A stretch of 64,000 nt of DNA from positions 434,001 through 498,000 of the forward strand of contig JAGFMI010000021.1 in assembly GCA_021030905.1 (NCBI GenBank), given 5' to 3'. Below, piece after piece: positions 16,460 through 58,525 of this stretch; positions within the stretch are counted from its first letter, which is position 1; each line of letters opens with the position of its first letter. The translations under genes were made by a program, and so were the position numbers. Origin of the DNA: Pyrenula massariospora (Eukaryota; Ascomycota; Eurotiomycetes; Pyrenulales; Pyrenulaceae). The notes under the pieces are model-generated. The model did no database searches, had not been told where the DNA came from, and worked only from the letters and a program-made list of their open reading frames with translations.

Positions 16460-16495
16460 TCCCTTACTAGTCGGTAATGGGCCACTTATTCGCAG
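16460..16495 (+). repeat. Left terminal inverted repeat of the DNA transposon
   Basis: Starts TCCCTTACTAGT right after TA, then GGTAATGGGC and ACTTAT, ending CGCAG. It is the inverted match of 44801-44836 and marks the left edge of the AT-rich block. Confidence 0.85.
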
Positions 16496-17796
16496 TCCGC
16501 ACGACTATTAAATTAACCTCTTCTTTTCAACTATTTAATTATTTACTATTAATACTTCATGTTGCTTATTTGAGTATTTATTTAAATTATAAAAAACTAT
16601 ATTATATATAATATATCCTTTTCTATATTGATTTCGTTTATAATATTGTAAATTATTTAAAATATTATTTAAAATCTCGCTAAGGGGAATACGACTCTTA
16701 AAATATTTATTTTATAATTATATATAATATTTATACGCCTCTTTATAATCGATAGGGTCTTTATAATATAATATATTTTTTTAAAATCTCTCTGTAAAGT
16801 GCGCACTTTGAATAATTATTTTAATATTTTGTTGATATAGCTGTATATTTAAAATTTAAAATAGAATTAAAATTATTTTATATTAAAAATCTCTGTATAT
16901 TTTAAGCGCCTATTTTACTTTTTTTGTTTTTAAAAATTTAAAATAAAGGTAAAAGGTATTAGAGATATTTAAATTAAATAAAAAATAAAAGACTAGTTAT
17001 TAATTATATTTATAAAAATAACTATTTAACAAATAATAACTATATATTTATATTTATATATTGAAGAATCTTATCTACTTATTATATAATAAAATGATTA
17101 GTTAGAATTTAACAACATTTTTAATACCGTTATTTATTATTTATAAAATTAGTAAATTTTTGTGGTAATAAGCAGGTTTATAATTAACATTGTTATAATC
17201 AAAATAAAATATTATTATAAATAAAATAAGTTTATAATTAATAACAAATTAAAATTTAACTTTATTTTTATATTTTTACGGAATTTTATTTTAATTTTTT
17301 TTTATTTTAAATTTTTTAGTGTTAAATACTTTTTTAAAAGTATATTTTATATTTTTTTTATAGGTACTAATTATTCCGATATTTAAATTTTTTAATTTAT
17401 AAAAAAAAAGTTACGAAGAATACTAATTATTTATTATAATAATTAAATTTATAATATTAATATTTTAATTTTGATAGAAAAGACACTTAATAAATTTAAA
17501 TATAATATTATTTATAATTTTTAAATATGAAAGAGGTATCTCAATAATTTTTTAATTTTTAATATTAAATAGAAAATTAATAATATATATTTTTTTATTA
17601 AAAAAATAAATTTTAATTTTTCTGTCTGCGGTCTTATTTTTTATTATTATTATATATATTGCGCGGTATTTATAGAGAATAAGTTACTTATTAATATTTA
17701 TAAAAATATTAAAGATATAGAGAGAACGCGCAGCTTTATGAAATTATATTATTTAAAATTTAATCTTGTTTTAGTAATTAATTTTTTTTATATTAG

Positions 17797-18179
17797 TGTT
17801 ACGTGAATACTTTTAGATTACTGGAAGGTATTCACAGAGGTTGATTTTTAAAGGATAATTTAAAGTTAAATTAAGAAAAAAATACTTGTGAAAGGTTCAT
17901 AAGGGTAATTTAATATTTTTATAATTAATTAAATATTTAGTTATTTAAATTAAATATATTTTTTATAATTATAAAGGGTATAAAGTTGATTTCTATATAT
18001 CTTCTTTTAAAATTATATAAATAGTTAAATAAAGAAGTTTTTTAAATAAAAGCTATTTAATAACGCTACTCTTTTTTTTACATTATATAAAATATTTATT
18101 ATGTAATTTAAGGTTAATTTCACATTATCTTTCTTTTTTTATAAATATTTTAAATAAGTTGTAAAAAGTGCTTGTAACA
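17797..18179 (-). repeat. LTR of element 1 (left copy, 3' LTR)
   Basis: 383 bp, TGTTACG...TTGTAACA on the plus strand, same length and layout as 43696-44078. The outer (left) edge keeps more G/C than the inner edge. Confidence 0.85.
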
Positions 18180-21100
18180 TTCACCTTCTTTTTATTAAAT
18201 TTTAATTTTAAAAATTAATTATGGTGATATTTAAGTGGGGTTTTATTAAGCTCGCATTTAAGTAATAATGTTTATTTTTTTTGTTAAAAAATTTTATTTT
18301 TTTTAACGGATTGAGTGTGATAGTTTTATTGTTAAATTTTTTTATTAATATTATATTTAAATTAATTAATTTTATTTTATTATATTTTTAAAGTTTATAA
18401 AATGTTTATAATGTGTTTGTTGTGGTAAATTTTATGTATTAATATTATAAGAGTTTGTAGATTGCGCTTTAAATATCTTTTTGTTATAAATTGAATAAAA
18501 AGAGAAGGCTAAAAAGTAATTAATAATAAAACTCTTAAAGTGTCGTATTAAGATTTAATGTTTTAAAAAAATTTTTTAATTAGCGCAGCATCGTGTGCAA
18601 GCTTAATTTAAATATTTAATTAAATAATTAATAGTAGAAGATAATGAGTGTATTATTAATAATAATTTATTTAAAAGTGAACAAGTTAATATCACTGTAA
18701 AACAGAAACTTTAAGAGTTAGCTGTCTTAAGTATTAGTTAAATTAATAACTTATTAAATAATTTGGGTGATGTAGTAATAACATTTAATTTTGTTAATAA
18801 TATTATTATATTAATAATTAACAATTAATTAAATACGGTAATAATTTTTATGTATTTTTAAAAATAAAGTATTTTTTTTATTTAATGAGATAGTTTTAAT
18901 TTTTATTTATTAATATTTATTTCACTTTATATATATCTTTTTTTAAAATTTTATAATAAAATATTTTTTAAATTAAAATTTTAAAATATACTAATTTTAA
19001 AAGTTCGATATTGAATATAAAATATATTTAAATATTATTTTATAATTTCAATTTATAAATTGCTAATTTTTTATTTTATTTAATTTTAAAAGATTTGATT
19101 TATTAATAATCTATTTTTTTATTTAATTGTAAAATTTTTAAATTTTTTATAGAGAGATAAACTTTATCTTCCCTTTTTAGTTAAAGATTTTTTTTTATTT
19201 TATTTTATATTATTAATGTAGTTTTTATTAAATTTATTAAATTTATTAAATTTTTTGTATAACTGTTTTTGTAGTTTTTTTTTTATAAAAAGTTTTTAAA
19301 AAGATGTAGGTATTTTTTAAAATTTATTTTATAAAAAAAATATGTCGTTGTGTTATTTCTTTTATTGTTATAATATAATTATACTATAAATAATTGTTTA
19401 TTTTAATTATTTATATTTATAAAAAGGTAATATTGTAATTAATTTTTCAATATTTAGTTAAATTTTATTTATTTATTTATTTATTTGTAGATAAAATGTC
19501 GTAAATATTTTTAATTTAATTTTTAATTTTAATATTATTATTTTTTAATATTAAAATATAAATAATTTATTTTTATTTAATATAATCTATATTAAAAATT
19601 CAAAATATTGTACTATTAAATTTATAATAATTTTTATTATTTATAGTGTAGTGTAATTTTCTTTAAATAATTTAAAAATTATATATTTAATATATTTATT
19701 TACTATTACGACAATTAAATTATAATTATTTAATAATAAAAATTTAATAATAAAATTAATTTTAATATTTTTTTATAATTTTATAAATTTTTTTTATATT
19801 ATTGTTAGTATGTAAAGGTATTTATTAATTTTATTTTTTTAATACGAAGTATATCTTTTAATATAATTTTTAATTTACTATTTTAATTTTAATATTTAAT
19901 AAATTCTTTATATTAATTTAATAATATTATTAATTTTTAAATAATTATATATAAATAAATTGTGATATTGTCGTATATTTTTTTTATTAATTGTTTTAAA
20001 ATTATAAGCTTTACTTCTTTATTTTCTTTATTAAAGTTTTAAAATTTATATTTTTTATTATATTTTTATATAATGGTGTTGATAATTTAGTTTAAGTTAA
20101 AATTTCTATTTAAATTTCTTTTTAATATAAATTATTTAATGACCTTTTTTGTTATATAATTTTTTTTTTAATTAAGTATATTCACTTAATTATTTTTTTT
20201 ATTTAATTAATAATATATTTTAAATTTATATTGTTTTAAAAGTTTTAATTATTAAATTTACTTTTTATTTAATTATTTTATAGTTATAAATATAATTAAA
20301 TTTTTATAATTTATAAATATATTAAATTGCGAAACGCTTTTTGTATATATTTATTAATATTTAAATATTATTATTATTATTATTATTAACAACTTTTTAT
20401 TGTAAATATTATAATTTTATTTTATTGAAATCAACTTTTTTAAATAGTATGTTATTAAATATCGCTTTTTATTTTATAACTATATTAAATATACTTTTAT
20501 AATTAAATTTAATATATTTATTTCAATTTAATTTAATTAATTTATTTTAAATATAATTAATACTAAGACTTCTGCATAGAATTATATTAGTTAATTAAAT
20601 ACTTTTTATTACTTTAAATTTTATTTATATTTGTGGTTCTTTTTAATTAATTTAATTAATAATTCTATCTTATAAAAATACTTTTTAATAAATTATTAAT
20701 TAAAGTTGTAAAATTTAAAAAAAGTTTGTAATTTTATTACTGTAATTAATTTTAATTATTTTTTAATAGTTTTACTCTTTTTAGAGCTAATATGTATACT
20801 ATTTTATTTTATAATATATTTTAAAAATTCAATTTTTGTTTTGTAGAATTTGTATTTTTTAAATTTTAATTATAATTTTGTATTGATCAATTTTTGTAAG
20901 ATTTATTTAACTTATTTTTTATATATTTTAAGATTTTTAAAATAAATAAAAATATTATTTAGATAAATAATAATAAATTTATTTAAAAAGGGTTTTAATA
21001 GATTGTTTATTAATATTTAATAAATAATTAATATATTAATAAATTTAAACGATATTATTTAATACTCGTAATATTTATATTTTATTTTAAAAATTATTTT

Positions 21101-21260
21101 TTATTCTTCGTCTTTCTTTATATATATAAAATTATAAATTTTTTATTAATTTAGTTTTATAAAGTATTTTACTTTTTATAATTTATTTTTTATTTTTATA
21201 ATATTAAGTAACAAATATCTATTTTTAATAATAATTTTATTAAATTTTCAATAATCTATA

Positions 21261-21622
21261 TGTTACGTAGGTACTTCTAGGTTACCGAAAGATACTTGCG
21301 TAAATTGATTCTTAAGGAATAACTCAAAATTAAATTAAGAAAGAAATATTTATAAAAAAATTATAAAAATAATTCAGTATTTTTATAATTAATTAAATAT
21401 TTAATTATTTGAGTTAAATATATTTTTATATATTTTAAAATAATTAGTAGTAATTAGTCTTATTTTCAATGCTAAAATTTAATTACTTTTTTTTATTATT
21501 AAAAGTAATTAGTCGTGTTTACAAATAGTATTTTTAATTATTTTTAATTTAATTACGTGATCATTCTCGAGTATCTTTTTCTATAAATAATAATTAATAT
21601 ACCTTGCTTAATGACCGCAATA
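21261..21622 (-). repeat. LTR of element 2 (left copy, 3' LTR, about 30-bp deletion)
   Basis: 362 bp instead of 392; it lacks the segment that carries GCGAAGCCG in the other copies (around 21432). Begins TGTTACGTAGGTACTTC; ends CCGCAATA, with the final CA mutated to TA. Confidence 0.85.
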
Positions 21623-23831
21623 CTATCTTTTTTTTTTGCGGAAACATTTTCATTTGCGACTGTACTTAAACTGATTTTATATTTGATTTAATTTTTAATT
21701 TTTATAAATATATATTATGTCTCTGTATATTACAAAATTAATTAATTGTCATAGAAAATTTATAGCTTGTTTTTTCTCCGTTTCCTTCCCTACTATAATT
21801 TTCTGTAAATAATATATAATGGATAGTGTTTTTTATATTATTATAAAGAATTCTTTTAAATATTTAAACTGTATTAAAAAAAGATGTTGCTGTAACAGCA
21901 GTATTTTTATAAATATTTTTAATATTATAATTTAACAGCGACAGTGGCTATAATACTTTATTTCTAAAAATCGTCGGCGAATTATTTATTTAGTTTAAAA
22001 ACTGATATCTACTCAAACAGAGCAAACAAATATAAAAGAAAAACTAAAAGATCTAAATTATTAATAAAGTAAAATAATAATTTAAAAGGTGGACGTAGTT
22101 ACTGTTTTTAATAAAATAATTAATATCTCTATATCAATTTAATAAAACAACTTTTTTTTTAATATTAATATTTTAAAATTATCTTTTTACAGTTAATCAA
22201 ATTTTTTTGTAATTTTTAAATATTTTTAAATATAAAATATTTTTTTTACTTAATTAAATATTTTTAATTTTATTTTTTTAAAATTTTTTCAACTTTATAT
22301 ATATCTTCTTTTTAAATTTTATAACAAAATATTTTTTAAATCAGAGTTTTAAAATATGCGGATTTTAAAAATTCGATATTAAATATAAAATATATTTAAA
22401 TATTATTTAATAATTCTAATTTATAAACTGTTAATTTTTTATTTTATTTAATTTTAAAAAATTCGATCCATCAATAATTTATTTTTTTATTTAATTATAA
22501 AGTTTTTAAATTTTTTATAAAGAAATAAACCTTATCTTTTTTTTTTAATTAAAAACTCTTTTTCTAGTTTATATTGTGCTATTAATATATTTTTTATTAA
22601 ATTTATTAAATTCTCTATATGGCTACTTCAGCAGTTTTCTTTTATAAAAAATTTTCTAAAAAATATAAATATCTTCTAAAGTTTACTTTATAAAAAAAAT
22701 ATTTCGTTATATTACTCGTTTTATTATTATAATATAATTATATTATTAATAATTATTTATTTTAGTTATTTATATTTATAAAAAAATAATGTCGTAATTA
22801 ATTTTTCAGTATTTAATTAATTTTATTTATTTATTTATTTATTTATAAGTAAAATATTGTAAATATTTTTAATTTAATTTTTAATTTTAATATCGTCGTT
22901 TTTCAGTATTAAAATATAAATAATTTATTTTTATTAAATATAATTTATACCGAAAATTTAAAATATTATATTATTAAATTTATAATAATTTCTGTTATTT
23001 GTAATATAGTGTAAATTTTTTTAAACAATTTAAAAATCGCATATTTAATATATTTATTTATTAATACAATAATTAAATTGTAATTATTTAATATTAAAAA
23101 TTTAGTAATAAAGTTAATTCCAATATTTTTTTATAATTTTATAAATTTTTTTTATATTGTTATTAATACATAAAGGAATTTATTAATTTTATTCTTTTAA
23201 TATAAAATATACTTTTTAATATATTTTTTAATTTACTGTTTTAACTTCAATATTTAATAAATCCTTTATATTAATTTAATAATATTATTAATTTCTAAAT
23301 ATTTATATACAGATAAGTTGTAATATTGTTGTATAATATTTTTTATTAATTTTTTTAAAATTATAAACTTTGCTTTTTTATTCTTTTTATTAAAGTTTTA
23401 AAGTTTTTATTTCTTACTATATTTTTATATAACAATATTAATAATTTAATTTAGGTTAAAGCTTTTATTTAAATTTCTTTTTAATATAAATTGTTCAATA
23501 GCTTTTTTTATTATATAATTTTTTTTTTAATTAAATGTGTCCGCTCAACTATTCTTTTTATTTAATTAATAATATATTTTAAATTTATATTATTTTAAAA
23601 GTTCTAATTATTAAATTTATTTTTTATTTAATTATTTTATTATCATAAATATAACTAAATTTTTATAATTTATAAATATATTAAATTGCGAGACGCTTTC
23701 TGTGTATATTTATTAATATTTAAATATTATTATTATTGTTAACAATTTTTTATTATAAATATTATAATTCTGTTTTATTGAAATTAATTTTTTTAAATAA
23801 TATATTACTAAATATCGCTTTTTATTTTGTA

Positions 23832-24224
23832 TGTTGCGGCCCCTTCCGAAAGAACTCTGGACGGTATTTATATCATCCAATAAAATAACACCGGACATCA
23901 CATGACTGATAACTTGTGTTACCTTTGGACAATAATTATAACTATCAGGAAAAATAACTATTGTTAGCAGAAGCAATAACTATAGCTATTATTTACCTTT
24001 ATATAAAGTTATCAACTATTAATATATAGGAATCAACTTTATATCCCTTTTTGGAATGAAAATATATTCAACTTAAATAATTAAACACCTAGTTAATTAT
24101 AAAAGTATTAAATTATCTTTGTGATCTTTTCATAAATATTTTTTTTTTAATTTAATTTTAAATTATCTTTTAAAAATCAACCTATATAAATATCTTTTAA
24201 TTATTTAAAAATATTTATATAATA
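23832..24224 (+). repeat. LTR of element 3 (left copy, 5' LTR)
   Basis: 393 bp. The first 130 bp or so (from TGTTGCGGCCCCTTCCGAAA) keep near-normal base composition, while the inner end is fully decayed and finishes ATAATA instead of ATAACA. Confidence 0.88.
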
Positions 24225-26550
24225 CTTTAAATATTTTAAAGATAATTTACTTAAAACAAAAAAAATCTTTAATCAATTTTACAGTTATTAAAAAGGTAAA
24301 AAAATTTTTGCTAAATAAATATAATAAAAATTACTAAAAATTTAATAATTAATTTATTTAATGTTAAATTTATTTCAAATTTTAAAAAAATAAAATTATT
24401 ATTAACAAAAAGATTATGTTTGCAGTAAAATTATTTTAAAAAAAAATTTATAAATAGCTAAAACTATAAATGTGGAATTATTTATTAGTTAAAATTAAAA
24501 AAAAAAAATTTAAACAATTTTAAAATCGTTGCTGTTAAAATTTTTAAAAATTTTAATATATTTTAAAAAAAAATAGAAAAAGTGTTCAATACAATAAATA
24601 TTAAAAAAAATATTAAAAAAATTATTTAATAAATATATTAAATCTATTTAGCAATAAAGTATATTCAACATTTCAAAAAAATTTTTATAAAATTGAATTA
24701 AAACAATGAATTTTTTATAACAATATTTAAAATTAAACTAAAAAATAATATTAAAGATAAATTTATATATATTAAAGTAAATTTAATTACATTTAAAAAA
24801 TTAATAAAAAAAATAATAAATTTAAATAACAAGTTGAAAAATTGTAAATTGAAAAAATTATATAATCAACACAATGCAGAATATTAATATATATTTAAAA
24901 AAAATTTTTAAAGATCAAAACGTTCCTATACACAGAGAGATAAAAATTTTAATTTAAATATAATATAAATTAATAATGTGGAGAAAAAACCACTAAAAAA
25001 AAAAATATAAATAAAAATATAATTAAAAATTACTATTTTTATAATAAAATAAACTATATAATTTAAAATTACAAAAATAAATCAATATATGAATTCAATA
25101 TAATTTACAAAATAAATATTTTAAAGGTTGTATAAACGCCTAAAGAGTTAATAAAAATAAAAAATAAAATAAATTTTAAAAAAAGAAATTGAAACACTCC
25201 AAATTAATCTATTAATAAAAAAATAAAAATTTATAAAAAACTATCATTACACAATTATATAATATTAAAAAATAATAAAATAATGTAGTTAAAAAAAATA
25301 TAAAAAAAAATTAATTCATTTAAATGACACAACAAAAAATAAAAAATATATATTAAAGATAAAAACTGTTTAATTATTTTAAAATATTATAAAAAAAATC
25401 CATATTTTAATAAATAGAATCTTTTTTATAAAAAAACTCATTAAAATAAATATATATATAAAAATTGCACATTTTATTAAACAGTATAAAATAAATTTAA
25501 AAAACTTTATTACAAAAAAACATACATAAAAGAATAGAAAAAATATAAAAATAAAAAATATTTACACCATCTACACGACAAAAAAATTAATATTTATTTT
25601 TTAAAAAAAATAAAGATTTTAAATTAAAAAATATAAATTATTAAACAAAAACAATTTTAAAAATGTTAATTAAAAAATTAAAAATTATATTTATTAAATT
25701 GATGTAAAGCTTATCAACCTTAAAAAATAATATATAAAATTAAAAAAATTAAAAATAAATATTTAATTATTAAATAATAAAACAATACAATATATCTTCA
25801 ACAACAATATTTTTTTATTATCTTAAATCAACAAAAATAAAAAATAGTATAAAGATTAACATTATAAATTTAAAAAGTTATATTATAATAACTAATAATA
25901 AAAATAATATTTAAATTGAATATATAGTATTACCAAATCATAAAAATTTATATAAAATATTTAATGTTTCAAAAAACATATTTAAAAACAACACATATTA
26001 AAATACTTTAAATTTATTGTTCTATAAATTTATACAAAAACCATTTGGAGAATAAATATATACAAAATTTATTTCTTAATAATTTCAAAATATAATATAA
26101 AAAAAAATAAAGAAATTAAACCGATAATAAATATACTCAGTTAATATAATACATTTATATAAATAATTTTTTATATCAAAAGCACAGCGCAAAGATACAA
26201 CAATATCTTTAAAAGCATAAATTATAAAAAAAATTTGAAGAATTTAAAACAGAACCTTTCAAAAAAATAAAAAGTGAACCCTCCAATTTAAAAAATAAAA
26301 AGAAAAAATTCATATTATAACTTTAAAATAATTAATAAACACAGAAAGTGTATATATCATTAAGAGAAAAATTACTTTTCAAAAACAAAGAATATAAATT
26401 TTAATTAACTTAAAAGCTACCGAAAATATTATATTTTAAAAGTATATAAATAGACTAAAAATTTTAACAAAAAAAAAAAACAAAAATATACAACATATTA
26501 TTCTTTAAAAAAAATAAAAAAAAAGCGCAGAAAATATCAATCGAAATAAA

Positions 26551-26942
26551 TATTATGTAGGTACTTCTAGGTGACCGAAAGGTACTTGTGTGAATTGATT
26601 CTTAAAGAATAATTTAGGGTAAAATTAAGAAGGGATATTTGTGAAGGGATCATAAAGGTAATTTAGTATTTTCGTAATTAATTAGGTGTTTAATTATTTG
26701 AGTTAAATATATTTTTTTTTTTAGAGGGAGAGCGAAGCCGCTTTTTATATATTTTTAAGTAATTAATTATGATTAATTTTACTTTTACAAGTTTTATTTA
26801 ATCGCTTGCCATTCCGTTCAGAGTTAATTAGTTGTATTTTCCGAAATTGTTTTTGATTACCTCTGGTTTGAATTATGTAATTATTTTCGGATATCTTTTT
26901 TTATAAATAATGATTAATGTGTCTTGCTTAATGGCCGCAATA
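26551..26942 (-). repeat. LTR of element 4 (left copy, 3' LTR)
   Basis: 392 bp. Begins TATTATGTAGGTACTTC (TG mutated to TA) and ends GGCCGCAATA. It keeps many G residues, while C is largely replaced by T. Confidence 0.86.
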
Positions 26943-29900
26943 TTATTTCTTCTTTTTGCGGAAACATTCTCATTTGCGATTATACTTAAATTGATTTTGC
27001 GCTTCATTTAAATTTATTTTGTAAATATGTGTTATGTCTCCGCGCGTTATAAAATTAACTAATTGCCGCAGAAAATTTATAGTTTGTTTCTCCTCCGTTT
27101 TTTTTTTTGTCATAATGTTTTATAAACAATGTATAATAAATGATGTTTTTTATATTACTATAAAAAATTTGTTTAAATGTTTAAACTGTATTAAAAAAAA
27201 ATGTTGTTGTAACAGTGATATTTTTATAAATATTTTTAATAATATAATTTAATAACGGCAGTAATTACAATATTTTATTTTTAAAGATTGTTGGCGTATC
27301 GTTTGTTTTGTTTAAAAATTAGTATCTACTTAAAATGAGTAGGTTGGGGTAAAAAAAAAGTTGGAAGATTTAAATCGGCAGTAAAATAAAATAGTTGTTT
27401 GAAAAGTGAATGCGGTTATCGCCTTAAATGATTTAATTAATATTTTTATATCGATTTAATAAAACGATGGTTTTCTTTACACTGTTAATATTCCGAAATT
27501 GTCTTTTTGCAGTTAATTAAATTTTTTAAAGATTTTTAAGTACTCTCCGACGTAGGGTATCTTTTTTATTTAATTAAATATATTTAACTTTGTTTTTTTA
27601 GAATCTTTTCCACTTTGTATATATCATTTTTTTAAATTTTATATTAAAATATTCTTTGCGTCGGGATGTTAAAATATGTTGATTTTAAAAATTCGATATT
27701 AAATATAGGATGTATTTTTATATTATTAAATAATTTCAACTTATACACCGCTGATTCTTTAATTTATTTAATTTTAAATGATTTGATTTACCGATGATTC
27801 ATTTTTTTACTTTGTTGTAAGATTTTTAAATTTTTTGTAAAAAGGTAAACTTTATTTTCCTCTTTTAGTTAAAAATTTTCTTCCTAATTTGTTTTTTATT
27901 GTTGTTGTAATTCTTATTGTATTTATTATAATTTTTGTAAAGCTGCTTTGGCAGTTTCTTTTTGTAAAAAATTTCTTGAAAGGTTTAAATATCTTTCAAA
28001 GTTTATTTGATAAGGAGAATATTTTGTTGTATTATTTTTCTTATTGTTATAGTACAACTACATTATTGATAACTATTTATTTTAATTATTTATATTTATA
28101 AAAAGATAATGTTGTAATTAGTTTTTTAATATTTAATTAATTTTTTTTATTTACCTATTTATCTGTGGGTAAAATGCTGTTAATATATTTAATTTAATTT
28201 TTAATTTTAATATTATTATTTTTTAGTATTGAAATGTAAATAGCTTATTTTTATTTAATATTATTTATTTTAAAAATTTAAAGTACTGTATTATTAAGTT
28301 TATGACAATTTTTATTATCTGTAATACTATATAGATTTTTTTGAATAATTTAAAGATTGTATATTTAATATATTTGTTTATAATCACTATAATTGTATTA
28401 TAATTATATGATGAAGGTAATTTAGTAATAAAATCAATTTTAATATTTTTTTATAATTTTATAGACTTTTTTTAAACTGTTATTAATATATAAAGATATT
28501 TATTAGTTTTATTCTTTTAGCAGAATGTATACCTTTTAATGTAATTTTTTATTCATTGTTTTAATTTCAGTATTTGATAATTTCTTTATATTAGTTTAAT
28601 AATATTGTTAATTTTTGGATGTTTATATATAAATGAATTATAATATTGTTGTATGATATTTTTTATTAATTTTTTTAATACTATAAATTTTGCCTTTTGT
28701 TCTTTAATATATTTTTATGTAGTGATATTAATAATCTAATTTAAGCTAAAATTTTTATCTAAATTTTTTTTCAGTATGGATTGTTCAATGATTTTTTTTA
28801 TTATATAATTTTTTTTTCAATTAAATGTGTCCGCTTGATTGTTCTTTTTATTTAATTTATAATATATTTTAAATTTATATTGTTTTAAAAATTTTGATTA
28901 TCGAATTTATCTTTTATTTAATTATTTTATAGTTGTAAATATAGTTAAATTTTTATAATTTATAAATATATTTAACTGTAAAACGCTCTTTATATATATT
29001 TATTAATATTTAAATATTATCATTATTGTTAACAATTCTTTATTATAAATATTATAATTTTATTTTATTGAAATTAATTTTTTAAAATAATATATTATTA
29101 AATATTTTTTTTTATTTTGTATTTGCATTAAATATATTTTTATAATTAAATTTAATATATTTATTTCAATTTGATTTAACTAATTTGCTTTAAATATAAT
29201 TAATATTAAAATTTTTATATAAAATTATATTAATTAGTTGAACGCTTTTTGCTGTTTTAATTTTTATTTATATTTATAATTTTTTTTGATCAATTTAATT
29301 AATGGTTCTACTTTATAAAAATATTTTTTAATAAATTATTAATTGAAGTTACAGAATTTAAAAAAGATTTATATTTTTATAACTGTAATTAATTTAAACC
29401 ATTTTTTAATAATTTTGTTTTTTTTTAGATTGATTTTAATACCGCTTTATTTAACAATATATTTTAAAAATTTAATCTTTATTTTGTGAAATTCGCATTT
29501 TTTTAATTTAAATTATAATTATATGTTAATAAGTTTTTATAAAATTTATTTAATTTATTTTCTGTGTATTTTAAGATCTTTAAAATAAATAAATATATTA
29601 TTTAAATAAGTGATGATGAAATTATTAAAAAAAAATTTTAATAAATTATTTATTAATATTTAATATATAATTGGTGCATTCATAAATTTAAATAATATTA
29701 TTTAATATTTATAATATTTATATTTAATTTTAAAAGTCGTTTTTTATTTTTCGCTTTTTTTTATACATATTAAGTTGTAAATTTTTTGTTGATTTAGTTT
29801 TATAAAATATCTAATTCTTTATAATCTATTTTTTATTTTTATAATATTAAATAATGAATATTTATTTTTAATAATAATATTATTAAACTTTTTATAGTTT

Positions 29901-31763
29901 ATATACAATCTTAATTTTCTATTTTATTTTTTTAATATAAATAAAATAAATAAGCCGATTGATGATTTAGATTTTTAAATAAATTTTTTTTTCAAATTAT
30001 TTTAAATATAGTTTCGTAAAATATTAAATTTTTTTTTAAATAATTTATATATTGATCTAAATGTAGATTTTTTTTTTAATTATAATTTAATTTTATAATT
30101 TCATAATTAATATTTTAATAATGTATTTATATTTATTTTTTTTTAAATAATTTATTCTATATAGCGTATTTTTAAAATATTATTAAAATTATATATTTTT
30201 TTAATATTCTGTTTTCATCGCAGCTTTTTTTTTTTAAATTGTTGAAAAAAATTAATCTTTATTTCACAAAGTTGTTTAATTTTAAAAAAGAAATTTTTAA
30301 AAATTCTCACTTTATATCTTTCTTTTTTATTAATGTATTATAATATTGTATAAATTTTTACATAATTATATAACTACATTTATTAAATTTAAACTTTTTT
30401 GTTTATTAGTCAATGTCTAAATTATACTTTTATAATTATAATATATTAAAAATTATTTAATTAACTGTTATTACTATAACATTTAAATATATTATTTTAT
30501 TATAATTATTTATTTTGCATTATAATGATTTTATTTTAATTAATATTTTTTGTACTTTTAATTTATCTCTTTTAAAAAATAACATATTGTATATTTCTAT
30601 TTTTTTTTTTATTAAAATTTCCATTTTATTTATACAGCTTTAAAATATGATGTTTTTAGTAATTTTTAAATTAATTAAGACTTATATCCTTCGTTTATAA
30701 AGAGTAATCTTTTTTTTAATGGTATATACACTTTCTGTGTTTACTAATTGTTTTGAGGTTATAACGTAAATCTTTCCTTTTCACCCTTTAAATTGAAGGG
30801 TTCGCCTTTTGCTTCCTCGAAATTTTCTATTTTCGATTCTTCAGGTGTTTATGCGACTTTTAAAATATCCGCTTTATAAACCATATTAAATTTATATACC
30901 GGTTTGTTTCTGTAGTTTTAAACTATATGACTCATTTTGCTATAAAAATAGTAATTTTTAACCATATTCTTATTTATACCTTTTTTCTTTAATGATTTTT
31001 TTTTTTACATTATCAACCTACATTACATTTAAATTAAAGTTTTTATTTTTCTGTGTATGGGAACATTTAGATTTTTAAAAAATTTTTTTAAATATACACC
31101 AATATTCTATATTGTATTAATTATATAATTTTTTTAATTTATAATTTTTCAATTTGTTATTTAAGCTTATTGTTTTTTTTATTAGTTTTTTAAATATGAT
31201 TAAATTTATTTCAATATATATAAATTTATCTTTAACGTTATTTTTTAGTTTAGTTTTAAATATTGTTATGAGAAATTCATTGTTTCAATTTAATTTTATA
31301 AAAATTTCTTTAAAATGTTGAACGTATTTTGTTACTAAATAGATTTAATATATTTATTAAATGACTTTTTTAATATTTTTTTTAATATTTATTACACCGA
31401 ACATTTTTTTTATTTTTTTTTAAAATATATTAAAGTCTTTAAAGACTTTGATGGCAATAACTTTAAAGTTATTTAAATTTTTTTTTCTTTTAACTTTAAT
31501 TAACAAATAATTTCGTATTTATAGTTTTAATTATTTATAAATTCTTCCTTAAAATAACTTTATTGTAAATATAATCTTTTTATTAGTAGTAACTTTGTTT
31601 TTTTAAAATTTAAAATAAATTTAATATTAAGTAAATTAGTTGTTAAACTTTCAGCGATTTTTGTTATATTTATTTAGTAAAAACTCTTTCACCTTTTTAG
31701 TAACTGCAAAATTGATTAAAAATTTTTTTTATTTTAAATAAATTATCTTTAAAATATTCAAAG

Positions 31764-32155
31764 TGTTACATAAATATTTTTAAGTAATCGAAAAATATTT
31801 GTGTAAATTAATTTTCAAAGAATAATTTAAAGTAAAGTTAAGAAAAAATACTTATAAAAAAATTACAAAAATAATTTAATACTTTTATAACTAACTAGGT
31901 ATCTAACTATTTAAATTAAATATATTTTTTTCTCCAAAGAGAAAATGAAGCCGCTTCCTATATATCTTTAAATAATTAATTATAATTAGTTTTGTTTTTA
32001 CAAGTTTTATTTAATTATTTACCATTCCGCTCAGAGCTAATTAGTTGTATTCTCCGAAGTTGTTTTTAATTATCTTTAATCTAAGTTATGTAATCATCCT
32101 TAAATATCTTTCCTTATAAATAACGATTGGTGTGCCTTACTTGGTGGCCGCAACA
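31764..32155 (-). repeat. LTR of element 4 (right copy, 5' LTR)
   Basis: 392 bp, TGTTACATAAATATT... to GGTGGCCGCAACA. Here G is largely replaced by A while C is kept more often, the opposite strand bias from the left copy. Confidence 0.86.
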
Positions 32156-32300
32156 ATAAAACCCTTACAATATAGAATAAATAGTTATATTAAAACAATA
32201 TATTTAAATATTATAATAATGACAATTAACTAAATAATTCTTAATATATTATAATTATAAAAACATAATTTAAATATTGATTAATAAATAAAAAAGTTTA

Positions 32301-33053
32301 AATTTAATAAATATAATTATATAACTATGCAAAAATCTACATAATATTATAATATATTAATAAAAAAGAAAAATATAAAGTAAAAACCTTTAAAAATTTT
32401 TTTTTTAAAATTAAATAACTTTATGAAATAAAAATTAATTCTTTTTAATAATTTAAAAAAAAAAAATTGTAATAAAAACAAAATATTAAAAAAATATATA
32501 ATTTTAATAATATTTTAAAAATACGCTGTATGAAATAAATTATTTAAAAAAAAAATAAATATAAATATACTACCAAAATATTAATCATAAAATTATAAAA
32601 TTAAATTATAATTAGAAAAAAAATTTACATTTAAATTAATATATAAATTATTTAAAAAGAAATTTAATAAATATAGTTATATAACTATACAAAAATTTAC
32701 ATAATGCTATAATATATTAATAAAAAAGAAAAATATAAAGTAAAAACCTTTAAAAATTTTTTTTTTAAAATTAAATAACTTTATNNNNNNNNNNNNNNNN
32801 NNNNNNNNNNNNNNNNNNNNNNNNNNNNNNNNNNNNNNNNNNNNNNNNNNNNNNNNNNNNNNNNNNNNNNNNNNNNNNNNNNNNAATATATAATTTTAAT
32901 AATATTTTAAAAATACGCTGTATGAAATAAATTATTTAAAAAAAAAATAAATATAAATATATTATCAAAATATTAATTATAAAATTATAAAATTAAATTA
33001 TAATTAAAAAAAAAATTTACATTTGAATTAATATATAAATTATTTAAAAAAAA
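32301..33053 (+). repeat. 360-bp tandem duplication spanning the assembly gap, inside element 3
   Basis: Bases 32301-32660 are repeated from 32661 on. For example 32700-32784 matches 32340-32424 at an offset of exactly 360, and sequence after the gap (32885 on) matches 32492 on. Copies differ only by transitions. The left join lies in the short homology AATTTAATA. It makes element 3 about 393 bp too long between 5' LTR and RT compared with element 2. It may be a true duplication or a mis-join at the gap. Confidence 0.8.
32785..32884. other. Assembly gap (100 N)
   Basis: Exactly 100 N, a customary placeholder. If the flanking duplicate is collinear, the real missing length is about 67 bp. Confidence 0.99.
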
Positions 33054-36000
33054 ATTTAATATTCTACAAAACTATATTTAAAATAATTTAAAAAAAAAAT
33101 TTATCTAAAAATCTGAATCACCAATCAACTTATCTATTTTATTTATATTAAAAGGATAAAATAGAGAGCTAAAATTATATATAAATTATAAAAAATTTAA
33201 TAACATTATTATTAAAAATAAATATTTATTATTTAATATTATAAAAATAAAAAATAAATTACAAGGAGCTAAATATTTTATAAAATTAAATTAATAAAAA
33301 GCTTACAACTTAATATGTATAAAAAAAAGCGAAAAATAAAAAACAACTTTTAAAATTAAATATAAATATTATAAATATTAAATAATACTATTTAAATTTA
33401 TAAATATATTAATTATATGTTAAATGTTAATAAATAATTTATTAAAATCTTTTTTTAATAATTTCATTATCATTTATTTAAACAATATATTTATTTATTT
33501 TAAAAATTTAAAAATGCACAAAAAACAAGTTAAATAAATTTTACAAAAATTTATTAATATATAGTTATAATTTAAATTAAAAAAATACGAATTTCATAAA
33601 ATGGAAATTAAATTTTTAAAATATATTATTAAACAAAATAATATTAAAATTAATTTTAAAAAAAATAAAGCAATTAAAAAATAACTTAAATTAATTACAA
33701 TTATAAAAATATAAATCTTCCTTAAATTCTATAACTTCAATTAACAATTTATTGAAAAATACTTTTATAAAATAGAATTATTAATTAAATTAATTAAAAA
33801 AAATTATAAATATAAATAAAAATTAGAACAGCAAAAGACGTTCAATTAATTAATATAATTTTATATAAAAATTTTAATACTAATTATATTTAAAGCAAAT
33901 TAGTTAAAATAAATTAAAATAAATATATTAAATTTAACTATAAAAATTTATTTTATATAGTTAAAAGACAAAAAACAATATTTAATAATATATTATTTTA
34001 AAAAATTAATTTCAGCAAAACAAAATTACAATATTTATAATAAAAAATTATTAATAATAATAATAGCACTTAAATATTAATAAATATATATAAAAAGTAT
34101 TTCATAATTAAATATATTTATAAATTACAAAAATTTAACTATATTTATAATCACAAAATAATTAAACAGAAAATAGATTTAATAATTAAAACTTTTAAAG
34201 CAATATAAATTCAAAATATATTATAAATTAAATAAAAAGAATAACTAAGTGAATACATTTAGTTGAAAAAAAAATTATATAATAAAAGAAATTATTGAAC
34301 AATCCATACTGAAAAAAAATTCAAATAAAAATTTTAATTCAAATTAGGTTGTTAATACTGCTATATAGAAATATAATAAAAAGTAAAAAGCGAAGCTTAT
34401 AATATTAAAAAAATTAACAAAAAACGTCATACAACAACACTATAAATCATTTATATATAAATATTTAGAAATTAATAATACTATTAAATTAATATAAAGA
34501 ATTTATTAAATATTAAAACTAAAACGGTAAATAAAAAATTACATTAAAAGATATATATTTTGTTAAAAGAATAAAATCAATAAATTCCTTTATGTGTTAA
34601 TAACAATATGAAAAAAATTTATAAAATTATAAAAAAATGTTGAAGTTAATTTCATTATTAAATTTTTCTTATTAAATAACTATAATATAATTATAATAAT
34701 TATAAATAAATATATTAAATATGTAATTTTTAAACCATTCAAAAAAATTTATACAGCATTATAAATAATAAAAATTATCATAAACTTGATGATACGGTAC
34801 TTCAAATTTTTTAAATAAATAATATTAAATAAAAATAAATTATTTATATTTCAATATTAAAAAATAATCATGTTAAAATTAAAAATTAAATTAAATATAT
34901 TAACAGCATTTTATTTATAAATAAATAAATAGATAAAAAAAATAAATTAAATATTAAAAAATTAATTACGGCATTATCTTTTTATAAATATAAATAATTA
35001 AAATAAATAATTATTAATAACATAATTATACTACAATAATAAGAAAAATAATATAATAAGGCATTTTCCTTACCAAGCAAATTTTAAAAAATACTTAAAT
35101 TTTTTAAAAAATTCTTTATAAAAAGAAACTGCTAAAATAACAATATAAAAAATATAATAAATTTAATAAAAACTAAAACAATAACAATAAATAATCCAAA
35201 AAAAGAATCTTTAACTGAAAGAGGGAGATAAAGTTTATCTCTCTACAAAAAATTTAAAATCTCTACAACTAAATAAAAAAATAGATTATAAATGAGTTAA
35301 ACCTTTTAAAATTAAATAAATAAAAAAATTAATAATTTATAAACTGAAACTATTAAACAATGTATAAATATATTCTGTATTTAATATTAAACTTTTAAAA
35401 TCAGTATATTTAAACACTCCAATTTAAAAAATATTTTATTATAAAATCCAGAAAGAAAATATGTATAAAGTAAAACAAGTTTTAAAAAATAAAGATTAAA
35501 ATTACCTCATCAAGTAAAAAAAATATCTTACTTTAAAAAATACATAAAAATTATTACACTATTTTATCTATTACTAATAATTACTACAGCAATATTATTA
35601 TCAATAAAAAAAAAAATGTTTACTGCGACCGGCTCCACTAAAAGATTATTAATATTTTGTAAAAATATTTAAACAAAATCTTTAAAAATTAATTATTAAT
35701 TGGCGAAATTTGCTCATTCCTTATTATTATAATTTTTAATATCTATTTACTTTTAAACTTCAACATTTAACTCTTTCACTAAATATATTACTTTAATATC
35801 AGCCTGACGCTCAACCAACTCCAAAATTTTTCAAAAACATTTTAATCGTATATAATATTTCATAACCTGCATTATAGCTTACTTTTTTTGTTGTTTCTTT
35901 TAAACAATTTTCACTCAAATAAAGTTACAGATACAATTTAAGATTTTTTACAATACAGCAATGCAAAATTTATTATTATAAATATATTCGGCACAACATA

Positions 36001-36220
36001 TTAATTTAAAGGGTGTTATAATACAATTAAAATGGTTACAGTAACAAAATTAATAAGGAAGAATCGCTAAATAACTTAAAGAAAAAATAACACAATGTAA
36101 ACAGAAAAATTAAAAAGCTAAAAAAAATAATATTTTTAATAAACAATTAAATGGAGGCACAGCCCATTTATATATAATATAAATAATTTTTAGGACAAAG
36201 ATTTATAAAGAGAAAGCAAG

Positions 36221-36613
36221 TGTTGCGGCCCCTTTTAAAGAAACTTTAAACAGTATTTATACTATTCAATAAAATGACACTGAACATTACATAATTAATA
36301 ATTTATATTACTTTCGGACAATAATTATAATTATTAGGAGAAACAGCCACCACTAACAAAAACGATAATTACAGCTATTATTTATCTCTATATAGGGTTA
36401 TCAGCCATCAATATATAGGAATTAACTTTGCATCCCTTTCTAGAACAAAAATATATTTAACTCAAATAATTAAACATCTAATTAATTATGAAAGTATTAA
36501 ACTACCCTTGTGATCTTTTTACAAATATTTTTTTCTTAATTTAATTTTAAGTTATCCTTTGAGAATCAATCTACACAAGTACCTTTTAATTATCCAAAAG
36601 TACCTACATAACA
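36221..36613 (+). repeat. LTR of element 3 (right copy, 3' LTR)
   Basis: 393 bp, TGTTGCGGCCCCTTTTAAAG... to GTACCTACATAACA. The outer (right) end is better preserved than the same part of the left copy. Confidence 0.88.
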
Positions 36614-37081
36614 TTGTAGTTATATTAAATAAATTTTTATAACTAAATTTAATGCATCTGTTTTAATTTAGCTTAATTAATTTATTTTAAATATAATTAA
36701 TATCAAGGTCTTTATATAAAATTATATTAATTACTTAAACACTTTCTGCTGCTTTAAATTTTATTTATATTTATAATTTTTTTTAATTAATTTAATTAAT
36801 AATTCTATTTTATAAAAATATTTTTTAATAAACTGTTGATTAAAGTTATAAAATTTAAAAAAAACTTATATTTTAATTACTGTAGTTGGTTTTAATCATT
36901 TTTTAATAATTTTATTTTTTTTAAAGTTAATATATATATTGTTTTTTTTTACAATATATTTTAAAAATTTAATTTTCGTTTTATAAAATTTATATTTTTT
37001 AAATTTTAACTGTAATTTTGCACTAATTAATTTTTATAAAATTTACTTAACCTGTTCTTTATATGTTTTAAAATTTTTAAA

Positions 37082-37582
37082 ATAAATAAAAATATTATCC
37101 AAATAGATAATAATAAAATTATTTAAAAAGGATTTTAATAAATTATTTATTAATATTTAATAAATAATTAATATATTAGTAAATCCAAATGGCATTATTC
37201 AATATTTATAATATTTATATTTTATTTTAAAAACTGTCTTCCATTTTTTGCTTTTCTTTATATATATAAGGTTGTAAATTTTTTGTTAATTTAATTTTAT
37301 AAAATATTTTGCGTTTTATAGTCTGTTTTTTATTTCCGTAATATTAAATAATAAATATTTATTTTTAATAATAATTTTATTAAATTTTTAATAATTTATA
37401 TATAGTTGTAACTCTTCATTTTGTTTTTTTAATATAAATAAAATTAATAATCCTACAGGTAACTCGAATTTTTTAATAAATTTTTTTTTTAAATTATTTC
37501 GAATATAGTTTTGTAAAATATTAAATTTTTTTTTAAATAATTTGTAAATAAATTCAAATATAAATTTTTTTTCTAATTGCAA
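37082..37582 (-). pseudogene. Ty3/Gypsy reverse-transcriptase remnant of element 2
   Basis: On the minus strand, 37388-37582 still reads as an open frame containing ELPVGLLILFILKK and then LQLYINY. These correspond to the Ty3/Gypsy RT blocks SP.G.PILFV.KK and LR.CVDY. About 95 codons further on, 37082-37105 encodes YLDNIFIY, the YLDD active site with Asp to Asn, as expected from G-to-A mutation. The spacing fits RT. The remnant fixes the sense strand of the element; it is not functional. Confidence 0.82.
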
Positions 37583-40354
37583 CTTAATTTTATAATTTTA
37601 TAATTAATATTTTAATAGTGCGTTTATATTTATTTTTTTTTAAAATAATTTACTTTATATAGCGTACTTTTAAAGTATTATTAAAATTATATATTTTTTT
37701 AATATTTTATTTTTATCACAGTTTTTTTTTTTTAAATTGCCGAAAAAAATCAATCTTTGTTTCACGAAGTTATCTAGTTTCGAAAGGAAGATCCCTTAAA
37801 ATATTCTTTTATTATTTTTTTTATTTATTAATATATTATAGCATTATGCAGGTTTTTGCATAATTATATATTTATATTTATTAAATTTAAACTTTTTTAT
37901 TTACTAATTTATATTTAAATTATATTTTTATAATTATAGTATATTAAAAATTATTTAATTAATTGCCATCATTATGACATTTAAATATATTGTTTTAATA
38001 TAATTATTTATTTTATATTGTAAAGATTCTATTTCAATTAATACTTTTTATATTTTTAATTTATTTTCTTTAAAGATTAATATGTTGTACATTTTTGTTT
38101 TTTTTTTTATTAAAATTTTTAGTTTATCTACACATTCTTAAAATATAATATTTTTTATAATTTTAAAATTAATTAAAATTTTCATTCTTTATTTATAAAA
38201 AATAATTTTTTTCTTTATAATATATATATTTTCGGTATTTATTATTTGCTTTAAAATTATAATGTATATTTTTTTTTTTTAATTTATAAATTGAAGAGTC
38301 TGCCTTTTATCTTTTTAAAACTTTTTTTATTCAATTTTTCAAAATTCTTTTATAATTTATACTTTTAAAGATATTATTGTATGTCTATATTATACTTTTA
38401 ATATAAAAAACTGTTTATATAAGTGTGCTATAATAACTAAATATATTCATTATCGGCTTAATTTCTTTACTTTTTTTTATACTAAGTTCGGAAATTGCCA
38501 AAAAATAAATTTTAAATATATTTATTCTTTAGGTAGTTTTTATATAAATTAATAAAATAATAAATTTAAAGTATTTTTATATATATTATTTTTAAATACA
38601 TCTTTTAATATATAATTTATTTCACATAAATTTCTATAATTTAATAATATTAAATATTTAATTTAAATGTTGTTTTTAATATCAATTATTATAATATAAT
38701 TTTTTAAATTTATAATATTAATCTTTATATTATTTTTTGCTTTTATTAATTTAAAATAATAAAAAAATATTATTATTATAAATACATTGTATTATTTTAC
38801 TATTTAAATATTAAATATTTATTTTTAACTTTTTTAACTTTGTATATAATTTTTTAGGATTAATAAATTTCACATTTATTCAATAAATATAATCTTTAAT
38901 TTTTTAATTAATATTTTTAAAGTTGTTTTTATTTAATGGTTTATATTTTTTAATTAAAAATTCTTATTTTTTTTAAAAAATAAATATTAACTTTCTTATT
39001 GCGTAAATAATATAAATATTTTTTATTTTTATATTTTTTTTATATTTTTATATATGCCTTTTTATAACGCAACTTCCCAAATTCTTTTTTTATAATTTAA
39101 TAAAATATATATTCTTCATATACACATTTATTTTAGTAAGTTTTTTTATAAAAAAAATTTTATTTATTAAAATATAAATTTTTTTTATATTATTTTAAAA
39201 TAATTAAATAGTATTTATTTTTAATATATATTTTTTATTTTTTATTATATTATTTAAATAAATCGGCTTTTTTTTTATTTTTTTTAGCTATTTAATTTTA
39301 TTGTCTTTTAATACTATATAATTATATAATAATAATTTTTTTTTAAATTTAAATTTCTTCATCGGTAAACTGATTTAATATATTTTAATTTCTTTTTTTA
39401 AAATCTATTTTGTCCTTTATTTTTATTAATTTTTTAAATATTTATACAACCTTTAAAATATCTATTTTATAAATTATATTAAATTTATATATCGATTTAT
39501 TTCAGCAGTTTTAAATTATATAATTTTTTTTTTATATAAATAGCAGTTTTTAACTATATCTTTATTTATATTTTTTTTTTTTAGTAATTTTTTTTTTACA
39601 TTATTAATTTATATTGTATTTAAATTAAAGATTTTTATTTTCTATACATAAAAATATTTAAATTTTTAAAAAGTTTTTTTAAATATTTATTAATATTTTG
39701 TATTGTGTTAATTATAAAATTATTTTAATTTATAATTTTTTAATTAATTATTTAAATATATTGTCTCCTTCGTCAGATTTTTTAATAAAAATAAATTTAC
39801 TCCAATTCATATTAATTTATTTTTAATATTATTTTTTAATTTAATTTTAAATATTGTTATAAAAATTTTATCTTTTTATTTTAATTTTATAAAAATTTTT
39901 TTAAAACATTAAACATATTTTACTGTGAAATATATTTATTTTATTTATTATATAATTTTATCGGCATTTTTTTTAATATTTATTACTTTAAATATATTTT
40001 CCATTTTTTTTTAAAAGATATTAAAATTTTTAAAGATTTTAATAATAATAATTTTAAAATTATTTAAATCTTTTTTTTTTTTAACTTTAATTAATAAATA
40101 GTTTTGTATTTATAATTTAAGTTATTTATAAACTTTTTCTTAAAATAACTTTACTGTAAATATAATATATTTATTAATAACAATTTTGTTATTTTAAAAT
40201 TTAAAATAAATTTAATATTAAGTAAATTAGTTATTAAATTTTCAGTAATTTTTATTATACTTATTAAATAAAAATTCTTTTATCTTTTTAATATTTATAA
40301 AATTAGTTAAAAATCCTCCTTATCCTAAATAAATTATTTTTAAAATATTTAAAG

Positions 40355-40746
40355 TGTTATATAGATACTTTTAAATTATTAAAAAATACTTATGTAGATT
40401 AATTCTTAAAAAATAATTTAAAATTAAATTAAGAAAGAAATATTTATAAAAAAATTATAAAAATAATTTAATATTTTTATAACTAATTAAATATTTAACT
40501 ATTTAAATTAAATATATTTTTATATTTAGAAAAGATGCGAAGCCGATTTCTATATATTTTAAAATAATTAATAATAATTAGTTTTATTTTTAGCGCTGAA
40601 ATTTAATCATCTTTTTTTATTATTAAAAATAATTAGTTATGCTTACAGGTAATATTTTTAATTATTTTTAATTTAATTACGTGATCATCTTCGGGTATTT
40701 TTTTTTATAAATAATAATTAATATATCTTGCTTGGTGGTCGTAACA
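40355..40746 (-). repeat. LTR of element 2 (right copy, 5' LTR)
   Basis: 392 bp, TGTTATATAGATAC... to GGTGGTCGTAACA, preceded by AAATATTTAAAG as in elements 1 and 4. Confidence 0.85.
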
Positions 40747-43695: not shown

Positions 43696-44078
43696 TATTA
43701 TATAAATACTTTTAAATTATTAAAAGGTATTTATAAAGATTAATTTTTAAAAAATAATTTAAAGTTAAATTAAAAAAGAAATATTTATAAAAAATTTATA
43801 AAAATAATTTAATATTTTTATAATTAAGTAAATATTTAATTATTTAAATTAAATATATTTTTTATAATTATAAAAAATGTGAAGTCGATTTCTATATATT
43901 TTCTTTTAAAATTATATAAATAACTAAATAAAAAAATTTTTTAAATGAAAGTTATTTAATAATACTACTTTTTCTTTTATATTATATAAACTATTTATTA
44001 TATGATTCGGGGTTAATTTTGTACTATTTTTTTTCTTTTATAAATACTTTAAATGGGTCGTGAGGAGTGCCCGTAACA
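43696..44078 (-). repeat. LTR of element 1 (right copy, 5' LTR)
   Basis: 383 bp, with the initial TG mutated to TA and the end intact as GTGCCCGTAACA. The outer (right) 30 bp are clearly less mutated than the rest. Confidence 0.85.
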
Positions 44079-44800
44079 ATTAGCTTTAAAAAATAGAGAA
44101 ATTTTAAAATAATATAAAATTTGTTTAAATTGATTATAAAAATAATATTTAGGCCATTTAAATATCAATTTTTCTATATTTTAAATTTAATAGATATTAA
44201 TTAAATATAATTATCTATTAAGACTGATTAACAATAAAATATTTATAAAAATATAAATATTTATAGTTATAATAAATATTTAAGACAGATTATATATTGT
44301 AAATTTTATAAATTATTTTTCAGTCTTTTTTATATATATATTAATTTAAATAGCCTATTTTTCGAAACACTTATTAAAATAAAATAATATAAAAAGTTAA
44401 AAAAATTTTTAAAATTAATATATAACAGAAAGTTCGCAATATTTTTTTAAAAATTTTATTTATAATATTTTAATAATTTTTTATTTATATTTTATAAATT
44501 TTTTAATTTTATTTGTCTTAACGTCTTCCATTTTTTATTTAAATAAAATAATAATTTATAAAAAATAATTATATAAATAGCTTTATATTGTAGTAATAAA
44601 ATATATTATATAATTTTAAAATATTATATAATAGTATTAAAGGCTTTTAGAATAAATTTTTTTAACTTTAAATTTTTATTAAACTTTTGCAATTTCAAAA
44701 TATTTTAAATTATATTAAATAAACTATAATTAATGATGATCAATAATTATAAAATTTTTAAAAATTTAAAATTTTACGATAAATAGATTGACAGGTAGAG

Positions 44801-44836
44801 CTGCGGATAAGTAGCCCATTACCAACTAGTAAGGGA
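44801..44836 (-). repeat. Right terminal inverted repeat of the DNA transposon
   Basis: Reads CTGCGGATAAGTAGCCC and then ATTACCAACTAGTAAGGGA, followed by TA. Its reverse complement matches 16460-16495 except for three C/T differences, which is consistent with RIP. Confidence 0.85.
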
Positions 44837-57383: not shown

Positions 57384-58525
57384 TTAGAACTCCCTGTGCC
57401 GCAAATAGTAGGGTTTTGATCTTTTCACTTGAAAGGTCCGAAGAGCCCGCTCGCTCGGATGGAATTGGTGAGTTATGGCCTTCCAGTAGAGAGCCTGAAC
57501 GGCATCAAGGTCTTCATTCTGAAGCGCGTCGGCGTCCTTCCCGTACAGTACAGAGGCAATGTCATCTAAGTCTGATCTGGCCTGGAGGCCGTACCGTTTC
57601 CATGTATCGGCAGAGACAAAACGGCGTTTTCCCTTCTCGAGCGCTTGCAGTTGCGACTGTTTGTTTAGCCATTTCTCGACCGCTGTATTACCTTTCGCGT
57701 CTATGTCCGCCTCTACAGGAGGATAGCGGTGTTGTAAGACAGCTAACTTGACGGAACCTGTCTCCGACAGATCTGGGTGATCTTCACCAGCCACTTCCTG
57801 TACTAGACTTAGAGCTTCAGGTTGCTGATTCGCGCAATCCGTTCGTTCACTTGCACGTCCATATTAGGCCCGCCAGATGGTTGTATCGGCGTGGTAACAG
57901 TCTCCAGACCATCGATGAGATACTTTATGTCTATGACCAGACAGTCGAGCTTTTTATTGTCCTTGATCACCCACTTAGCTTTGCCTTTCAAACTCATTTT
58001 AGAAAAGTGACGTGTTGTTGTTGCAATTCTGAAATCATCAAAACTCTGATTGAGAGTCATTTGTAGCTCTGTGCAATCATGTGGCCATCGCGACGGATCA
58101 GGTGAAAGAGTGAGGTGAGCGCTTGGAGAGCCTAAGTGACATGTCAAGCGCCGAGGCGTTTGGTCGCTCAGAGTCTGTCGCAACCATACCGTCTCCGGAG
58201 CTGCGAGGTTTTTTACGAAGAGCATAAAGATTTCGTTCAAAATCTCATGAACAATATGGGCAAATGGTGTCCCTATGAGTTGAGCGGAATGGTGGTTGTC
58301 ATGTTGTGACTGCTGCTTATCAGGCTTCGTTGAACCCATACTCTGTCCCCATTGGTAAAGACGGCATTGCTCAATCTTCAATTGTGCGGATAGAATAGCT
58401 TGGGAGTCACTCGCATTGTGGTACGTGTCAATGACTGAAAAGATCTCAAGGCAAGAAGCAAAAAGTCCTCCGAGTGTCACACCACTCGCAATCACTCCAA
58501 TGACTTGAGCCATCGTAGGAGACAT
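57384..58525 (-). pseudogene. HeLo-domain protein (HET-s-type N-terminal domain), frameshifted
   Basis: HeLo domains are membrane-acting cell-death effectors or signalling domains in fungal allorecognition. The first frame (58525-57809) begins MSPTMAQVIGVIASGVTLGGLFASCLEIFSVID and has LKIEQCRLYQWGQSMG, a typical HeLo start. It ends prematurely at 57809, just after ERIARISNL. The rest continues in another frame (EALSLVQEVAGEDHPDL, then KWLNKQSQLQALEKGKRRFVSADTWKRYG) to 57384. No intron fits, so a 1-bp deletion near 57817 is the simplest reading. It may be a real inactivation or a sequencing error. Combined length would be about 375 residues. No prion-forming repeat or NACHT/NB-ARC domain follows. 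Confidence 0.75.

Follow-up and report, generated by a model that had tools for sequence, protein, structure and literature searches.

How does a long block of extremely AT-rich DNA come to lie in an otherwise ordinary part of a fungal genome, and can its history still be read? The question is raised by positions 16460-44836 of a 64,000-nucleotide stretch of the Pyrenula massariospora genome (contig JAGFMI010000021.1, here C13; C13:434001-498000, hereafter the window), which is 37.8 Mb in 33 contigs. GC content per kilobase is 43-57% in the flanks of the window and 7-21% between 17 and 45 kb, and further AT-rich blocks of this type are present elsewhere in the genome, for which reason a centromere was set aside as a reading. 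The block is a nest of transposable elements with five levels, the order of which is certain: a transposon with terminal inverted repeats (TIRs) contains long terminal repeat (LTR) element 1, which contains element 2, which contains element 3, which contains element 4. We have little doubt that the best explanation is a TIR transposon followed by insertions of four related gypsy elements, each into the previous one, together with repeat-induced point mutation (RIP). The parts of the nest, with their target site duplications (TSDs), are as follows.

16460-17796, no strand assigned: left piece of the outer TIR element, with TA duplication, matching inverted ends, and an uninterrupted relative at C22:1587831-1589923; the left ATTAG copy (17792-17796) is included
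44079-44836, no strand assigned: right piece of the outer TIR element; the right ATTAG copy (44079-44083) is included
17797-44078, minus strand: LTR element 1, whole span including nested inserts; LTRs 17797-18179 and 43696-44078; TSD ATTAG
21261-40746, minus strand: LTR element 2, within element 1; LTRs 21261-21622 (30-bp deletion) and 40355-40746; TSD CTATA
23832-36613, plus strand: LTR element 3, inverted, within element 2; LTRs 23832-24224 and 36221-36613; TSD TTGTA
26551-32155, minus strand: LTR element 4, innermost, within element 3; LTRs 26551-26942 and 31764-32155; TSD ATAAA

The ends of the elements carry the first line of evidence. An initial annotation had placed the block at 16460-44836, and these coordinates are exact: the TIR element begins with TCCCTTACTAGT at 16460 and ends in ACTAGTAAGGGA at 44836, with TA on both flanks. 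The LTRs of elements 1-4 are 383/383, 362/392, 393/393, and 392/392 bp long, in agreement with the earlier lengths (383, 392 less a 30-bp deletion, 393, and 392 bp), and the 5-bp duplications claimed for all four pairs (ATTAG, CTATA, TTGTA, and ATAAA) are likewise exact. At the composition of the block, a random pair of 5-mers would match with p ~0.0126, and four of four with ~2.5e-8. An LTR pair, TG..CA ends, and a TSD of 4-6 bp are features of Ty3/gypsy LTR retrotransposons; here there are four LTR pairs with 5-bp TSDs, and RIP-type changes occur in some of the terminal bases.

Partner LTRs can also be recognized by the kind of differences between them. Within pairs, there are 292 transitions and 2 transversions over 1,530 sites: 66 and 2, respectively, at 383 sites in element 1, 53 and 0 at 362 in element 2, 81 and 0 at 393 in element 3, and 92 and 0 at 392 in element 4. 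Between pairs (24 pairwise alignments), 20-24 transversions separate elements 2 and 4, and 44-73 separate the others. LTRs lying closer to other pairs than to their partners at transversions, an outcome named beforehand as speaking against the nest, are not what is seen (0-2 versus 20-73). The same counts bear on the notion that the block came about by duplicating a single RIPed element and not by separate insertions. All four elements are indeed related, but each level has a separate TSD, element 3 is inverted, three LTR types are present, and the transversions between pairs far exceed those within them, leaving this alternative a negligible chance.

The sequence of each host continues across the element inserted into it, as had been claimed for insertions 2, 3, and 4, and the outermost insertion behaves in the same way. 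For the inner sites, flanks of 100+100 nt were joined and aligned to the three other LTR elements; each site aligns through in all three, with 1-6 transversions over 184-201 alignment columns, of which 0-3 are gaps. For the outer site, 80+80 nt with one TSD copy were compared with two of the four loci carrying the TIR element. The joined flanks are uninterrupted in both, namely C22:1587831-1589923 (all 160 nt aligned) and a truncated copy at C4:1194438-1195536 (146 nt aligned), with no transversion seen in either alignment. At the third locus, C22:1996986-2005934, both TIR pieces abut at the site of element 1, and the fourth, C13:695145-695905, has the right piece only. Over the whole pieces, C22:1587831-1589923 differs by 29 transversions of 1,334 (left) and 13 of 753 (right). 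The target site reads ATCAG in both tested relatives and ATTAG in both TSD copies here; it may already have been mutated when element 1 inserted, or both TSD copies may have mutated later. Alignments reaching 17735 had suggested a resemblance between the DNA to the left of LTR element 1 and the internal end of an element; this was rejected, since the TIR flanks, once joined, agree with TIR copies that have no interruption. Insertion order and repeated insertion at one locus, both put forward in the initial annotation, are borne out by the TSDs, the pair test, this continuity, and the order of mutational load described below.

The outer element is, on its target duplication, a ~2.1-kb TIR transposon of the Tc1/mariner type. 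A TA duplication with matching TIRs was found in three full-size copies (the window, L031, and L032) and in two elements resembling miniature inverted-repeat transposable elements (MITEs; L013 and L014). The DDE_1 and DDE_3 profiles gave no match in the window, where the outer element is heavily mutated. A second TIR copy, L031 (C22:1996986-2005934), independently contains an LTR element, and AAAAT can be read at the junctions on either side of this insert. MITE-like elements of ~0.2-0.5 kb with the TIR of the outer element lie at 1274-1751 of L013 and 1502-1967 of L014, the two in which TA duplications were checked. Others with the same TIR lie at C23:203271-203492, C32:406572-406784, and C5:112711-112919.

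Traces of protein domains indicate what the four LTR elements are. An RVT_1 profile trace lies at 36956-37417 (minus strand) in element 2, RNase H traces at 28988-29257 (minus) in element 4 and 33826-34098 (plus) in element 3, and integrase H2C2 traces at 28505-28675 (minus) in element 4 and 34408-34578 (plus) in element 3. The strands of elements 2, 3, and 4 follow from these traces, and element 1 is assigned to the minus strand because of its homology to element 2. The order reverse transcriptase (PF00078 type), RNase H, integrase is found across the elements; no single element shows all three, and homology alone places element 1. By this domain order the four are Ty3/gypsy elements, and they are probably chromoviruses, which are characterized by a chromodomain at the C-terminus of the integrase. 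One of six matches to the chromodomain profile lies in a relative, at C4:1092612-1092740, and the DNA of that stretch can be aligned in full to elements 2 and 4 and, for its first half, to elements 1 and 3. The RVT_2 profile gave no match in the window; Ty1/copia was rejected, as the only two RVT_2 matches of the genome are on C17 and C18.

The initial annotation described all four LTR elements as related, which is so, but the kinship is not uniform. Counted per 250-nt tile, the fraction of transversions is 0.004-0.065 between elements 1 and 2 up to coordinate ~5,500, 0-0.028 between elements 3 and 4 up to ~5,200 (tiles over the deletion in element 4 set aside), and 0.008-0.067 between elements 2 and 4. 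In the final ~1 kb leading up to and into U3, this last pair is still alignable (0.016-0.052), and elements 1 and 3 are unalignable or at noise level (0.24-0.27), both with 2/4 and with each other. The outer LTR end is alignable again in some element pairs. Kinship in gag-pol is (1,2)(3,4), and at the 3′ end and U3 it is (2,4) with 1 and 3 each distinct, giving three LTR/3′-end types. The elements are mosaic, elements 1 and 3 having apparently acquired other 3′ modules. The end-to-end alignment of elements 1-3 that had been expected is obtained over gag-pol and breaks down in the final ~1 kb, with its differing 3′ modules; this is no failure of the nest, because each junction was tested by itself. 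Three further features belong to the inner elements.

~30822-30843: ~1.1-kb internal deletion in element 4, which is unaligned to the others over that stretch
32310-33061, no strand assigned: 360-bp tandem duplication in element 3; copy A 32310-32669, copy B 32670-32784, gap, and 32885-33061
32785-32884, no strand assigned: 100-N assembly gap in copy B, a run of N within element 3

Among the matches listed in the regions searched, no copy has the deletion junction of element 4, and its two sides match apart. In the tandem duplication, 32670-32784 repeats 32310-32424 to the left of the gap (5 transitions, 0 transversions) and 32885-33061 repeats 32493-32669 to the right (6 transitions, 0 transversions), for a total of 11 transitions and no transversions at the 292 sites compared. 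Elements 2 and 4 continue without the 360-bp duplication, which probably arose late, given the low divergence between its copies. A true gap of 68 bp is predicted, which fits the parts (115 + 68 + 177 = 360).

The run of 100 Ns at 32785-32884 might mark an assembly or scaffolding artefact in which unrelated repeats were joined over a gap. This is highly improbable, however, as the gap separates the paired LTRs of elements 1, 2, and 3, which have identical TSD copies and differ by 2, 0, and 0 transversions, and it falls inside a tandem duplication whose parts are consistent. The scaffold join is thus supported by the matching LTR pairs and TSDs that flank it. On the TSD, transversion, and gap evidence, both an artefact of this kind and the duplication of one element were rejected.

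RIP acts in the sexual cycle and needs a RID-type enzyme; in its textbook form it prefers CpA, which is common though not universal. In the block, changes are nearly confined to transitions, C/T and G/A are both common, and the AT-rich composition begins ~50 bp inside both TIR ends. By context, the mutated fraction at LTR differences is 81/115 for CpA, 113/164 for CpT, 17/35 for CpC, and 11/29 for CpG, with 97 sites that have a variable neighbor set aside. The term RIP-type mutation is used because the CpA preference was not found.

The load of this mutation follows the order of the nest. From element 1 to element 4, GC content is 9.5, 11.4, 13.4, and 15.9%, and the fraction of sites in the AT state is 0.708, 0.639, 0.607, and 0.509 at 895 transition-type sites, drawn from those tiles (12 of 21) for which all four elements could be aligned. 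The bootstrap for the complete load order 1>2>3>4 is 0.904. Three other two-level self-nests, from eight fetched regions, were also tested.

C29:1547781-1561327: self-nest with outer TSD CTGTG and inner TSD ATATA
C6:1893-15414: self-nest with outer TSD CGCAA and inner TSD TATCT
C4:1070607-1084177: self-nest with outer TSD TAGCG and inner TSD TTTAC, read by eye from printed junctions; in the comparison, the right end of the inner copy had been placed 13 bp short of its position

At homologous transition sites, the outer copy is the more RIP-mutated in six of six outer/inner pairs over the four loci, with z values of 3.7, 1.9, and 4.9 in the window, 11.8 at C29, 1.3 at C4, and 26.1 at C6. Two of the six are weak (window 2>3 and C4), and the three window pairs draw on data also used in the 895-site analysis and are not fully independent. 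The AT content of the levels could instead reflect the composition of subfamilies and not time since insertion, a reading favored by the different 3′-end types of the elements and by the weak steps in the window and the C4 nest. The consistent direction in all six pairs, even with this partial dependence, makes it unlikely.

The greater mutation of outer copies in every pair is the least ordinary aspect of the locus, and longer exposure may account for it. Because the outer copy was more mutated in six of six pairs, nesting may serve to calibrate RIP. Nests could be a stratigraphic record of RIP, which would then build up progressively through many sexual cycles, at a rate that insertion order, in place of a molecular clock, would serve to calibrate. 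We regard this proposal as evenly poised; within it, the transversions would indicate that little other time has elapsed. A narrow literature search for RIP load in relation to insertion order gave no match, which does not show that there is none. What the locus offers is a fully resolved nest, with four insertions of certain order in DNA largely erased by RIP-type mutation and LTR pairs still recognizable from transversions and duplications. It thereby provides a relative time axis for asking whether RIP strikes once or cumulatively, and whether silenced copies attract further chromoviruses of their own kind or are simply places where these persist.

On the favored account, a ~2.1-kb TIR transposon landed at a TA in ordinary DNA of ~48% GC. 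A Ty3/gypsy element then entered it, a relative entered that copy, a third went into the second on the opposite strand, and a fourth into the third, every LTR insertion generating a 5-bp duplication. RIP converted most C:G to T:A across the block, stopping near the ends of the TIR element. The chromodomain of the relative may be shared by the window copies, and may have attracted subsequent copies through its binding to H3K9-methylated, RIPed DNA; such attraction and passive retention appear about equally probable. Several observations weigh against the account as a whole. No chromodomain match was obtained in the window copies at E 0.001, and the integrase core profile (rve) found no match genome-wide, though its controls gave matches; a gag profile also found none, which is uninformative as it was silent in controls too. 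An assembly gap lies inside element 3, and the step in RIP load from element 2 to element 3 is weak (bootstrap 0.905; z 1.9). CpA is not preferred over CpT at LTR differences (0.70 versus 0.69 mutated), where saturation may hide such a preference. Lastly, of 11 other LTR pairs, 2 have a GC content of 0.37-0.42 in both flanks, and 1 is mixed.

These 11 pairs, from eight fetched regions chosen by family matches, are a minimum (at least 11), as the finder recovered only one of the four window pairs, its limits on match length and transversions dropping the others. Eight have flanks of <0.30 GC on both sides, and inner nest copies sit in AT-rich DNA by construction. Among 20 random 500-bp points (15 of 33 contigs, 21.1 Mb), all had a GC content of 0.43-0.60 and none fell below 0.30. 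This bias fits targeting through a chromodomain, but it fits equally well a process in which insertions are random, genic ones disappear, and copies in dead, AT-rich DNA accumulate, and so does not discriminate between them. To such passive retention we give somewhat less than an even chance. Consistent with it are the two pairs in DNA of ~40% GC, the lack of a detected chromodomain in the window copies, and the concentric order itself: from element lengths, landing in the newest copy each time without any preference has a probability of ~0.10 (0.77 x 0.43 x 0.30). The statement that the family kept inserting into its own copies therefore stands as a description, and a preference for the newest copy is not needed (p ~0.10).

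Nested LTR clusters with verified duplications are already in print for fungi, hence the kind is known. For example, PMC4522978 describes 78 nested clusters of 7.5-63 kb in Mycosphaerella graminicola, 49 with an LTR base, with a drop in GC shown for one. TSDs were verified in 35 LTR-base clusters; for eight clusters that exceed 20 kb and have a DNA transposon or an unclassified element as base, this was done for the primary LTR insertion. Some clusters have more than two levels, such as base 242 with (49 (263 (623))). In the table of that source the levels are mostly different families, whereas here four related elements make up five levels together with the TIR element. The same paper names nested clusters for Leptosphaeria maculans and Epichloe, which are likewise nested elements of fungal genomes.

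With respect to the elements themselves, crapaud of Podospora anserina is described in PMC10787394 as having gag, reverse transcriptase, RNase, integrase, and chromodomain and as subject to RIP. Its two terminal repeats total 800 bp and vary in their 5′ half, its internal regions are uncoupled from LTR subfamily, and one cluster has a ~1.1-kb internal deletion. By description, the window elements are alike in LTR/internal uncoupling, RIP, and a ~1.1-kb deletion, a likeness drawn here from four copies plus the fetched loci. With chromoviruses such as MAGGY (PMC3605345), they share the order of the Ty3/gypsy domains, and in a relative the integrase is followed by a chromodomain match; unlike these, the window has only DNA homologous to the chromodomain stretch of that relative.

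Outside the block, an open frame with a HeLo domain lies at 57809-58546 (minus strand). It adjoins a second at 58906-61350 (minus strand), with ankyrin repeats and a PigL_N match below the cut-off, and the HeLo/ankyrin pair at 57809-61350 is possibly an incompatibility-type locus.

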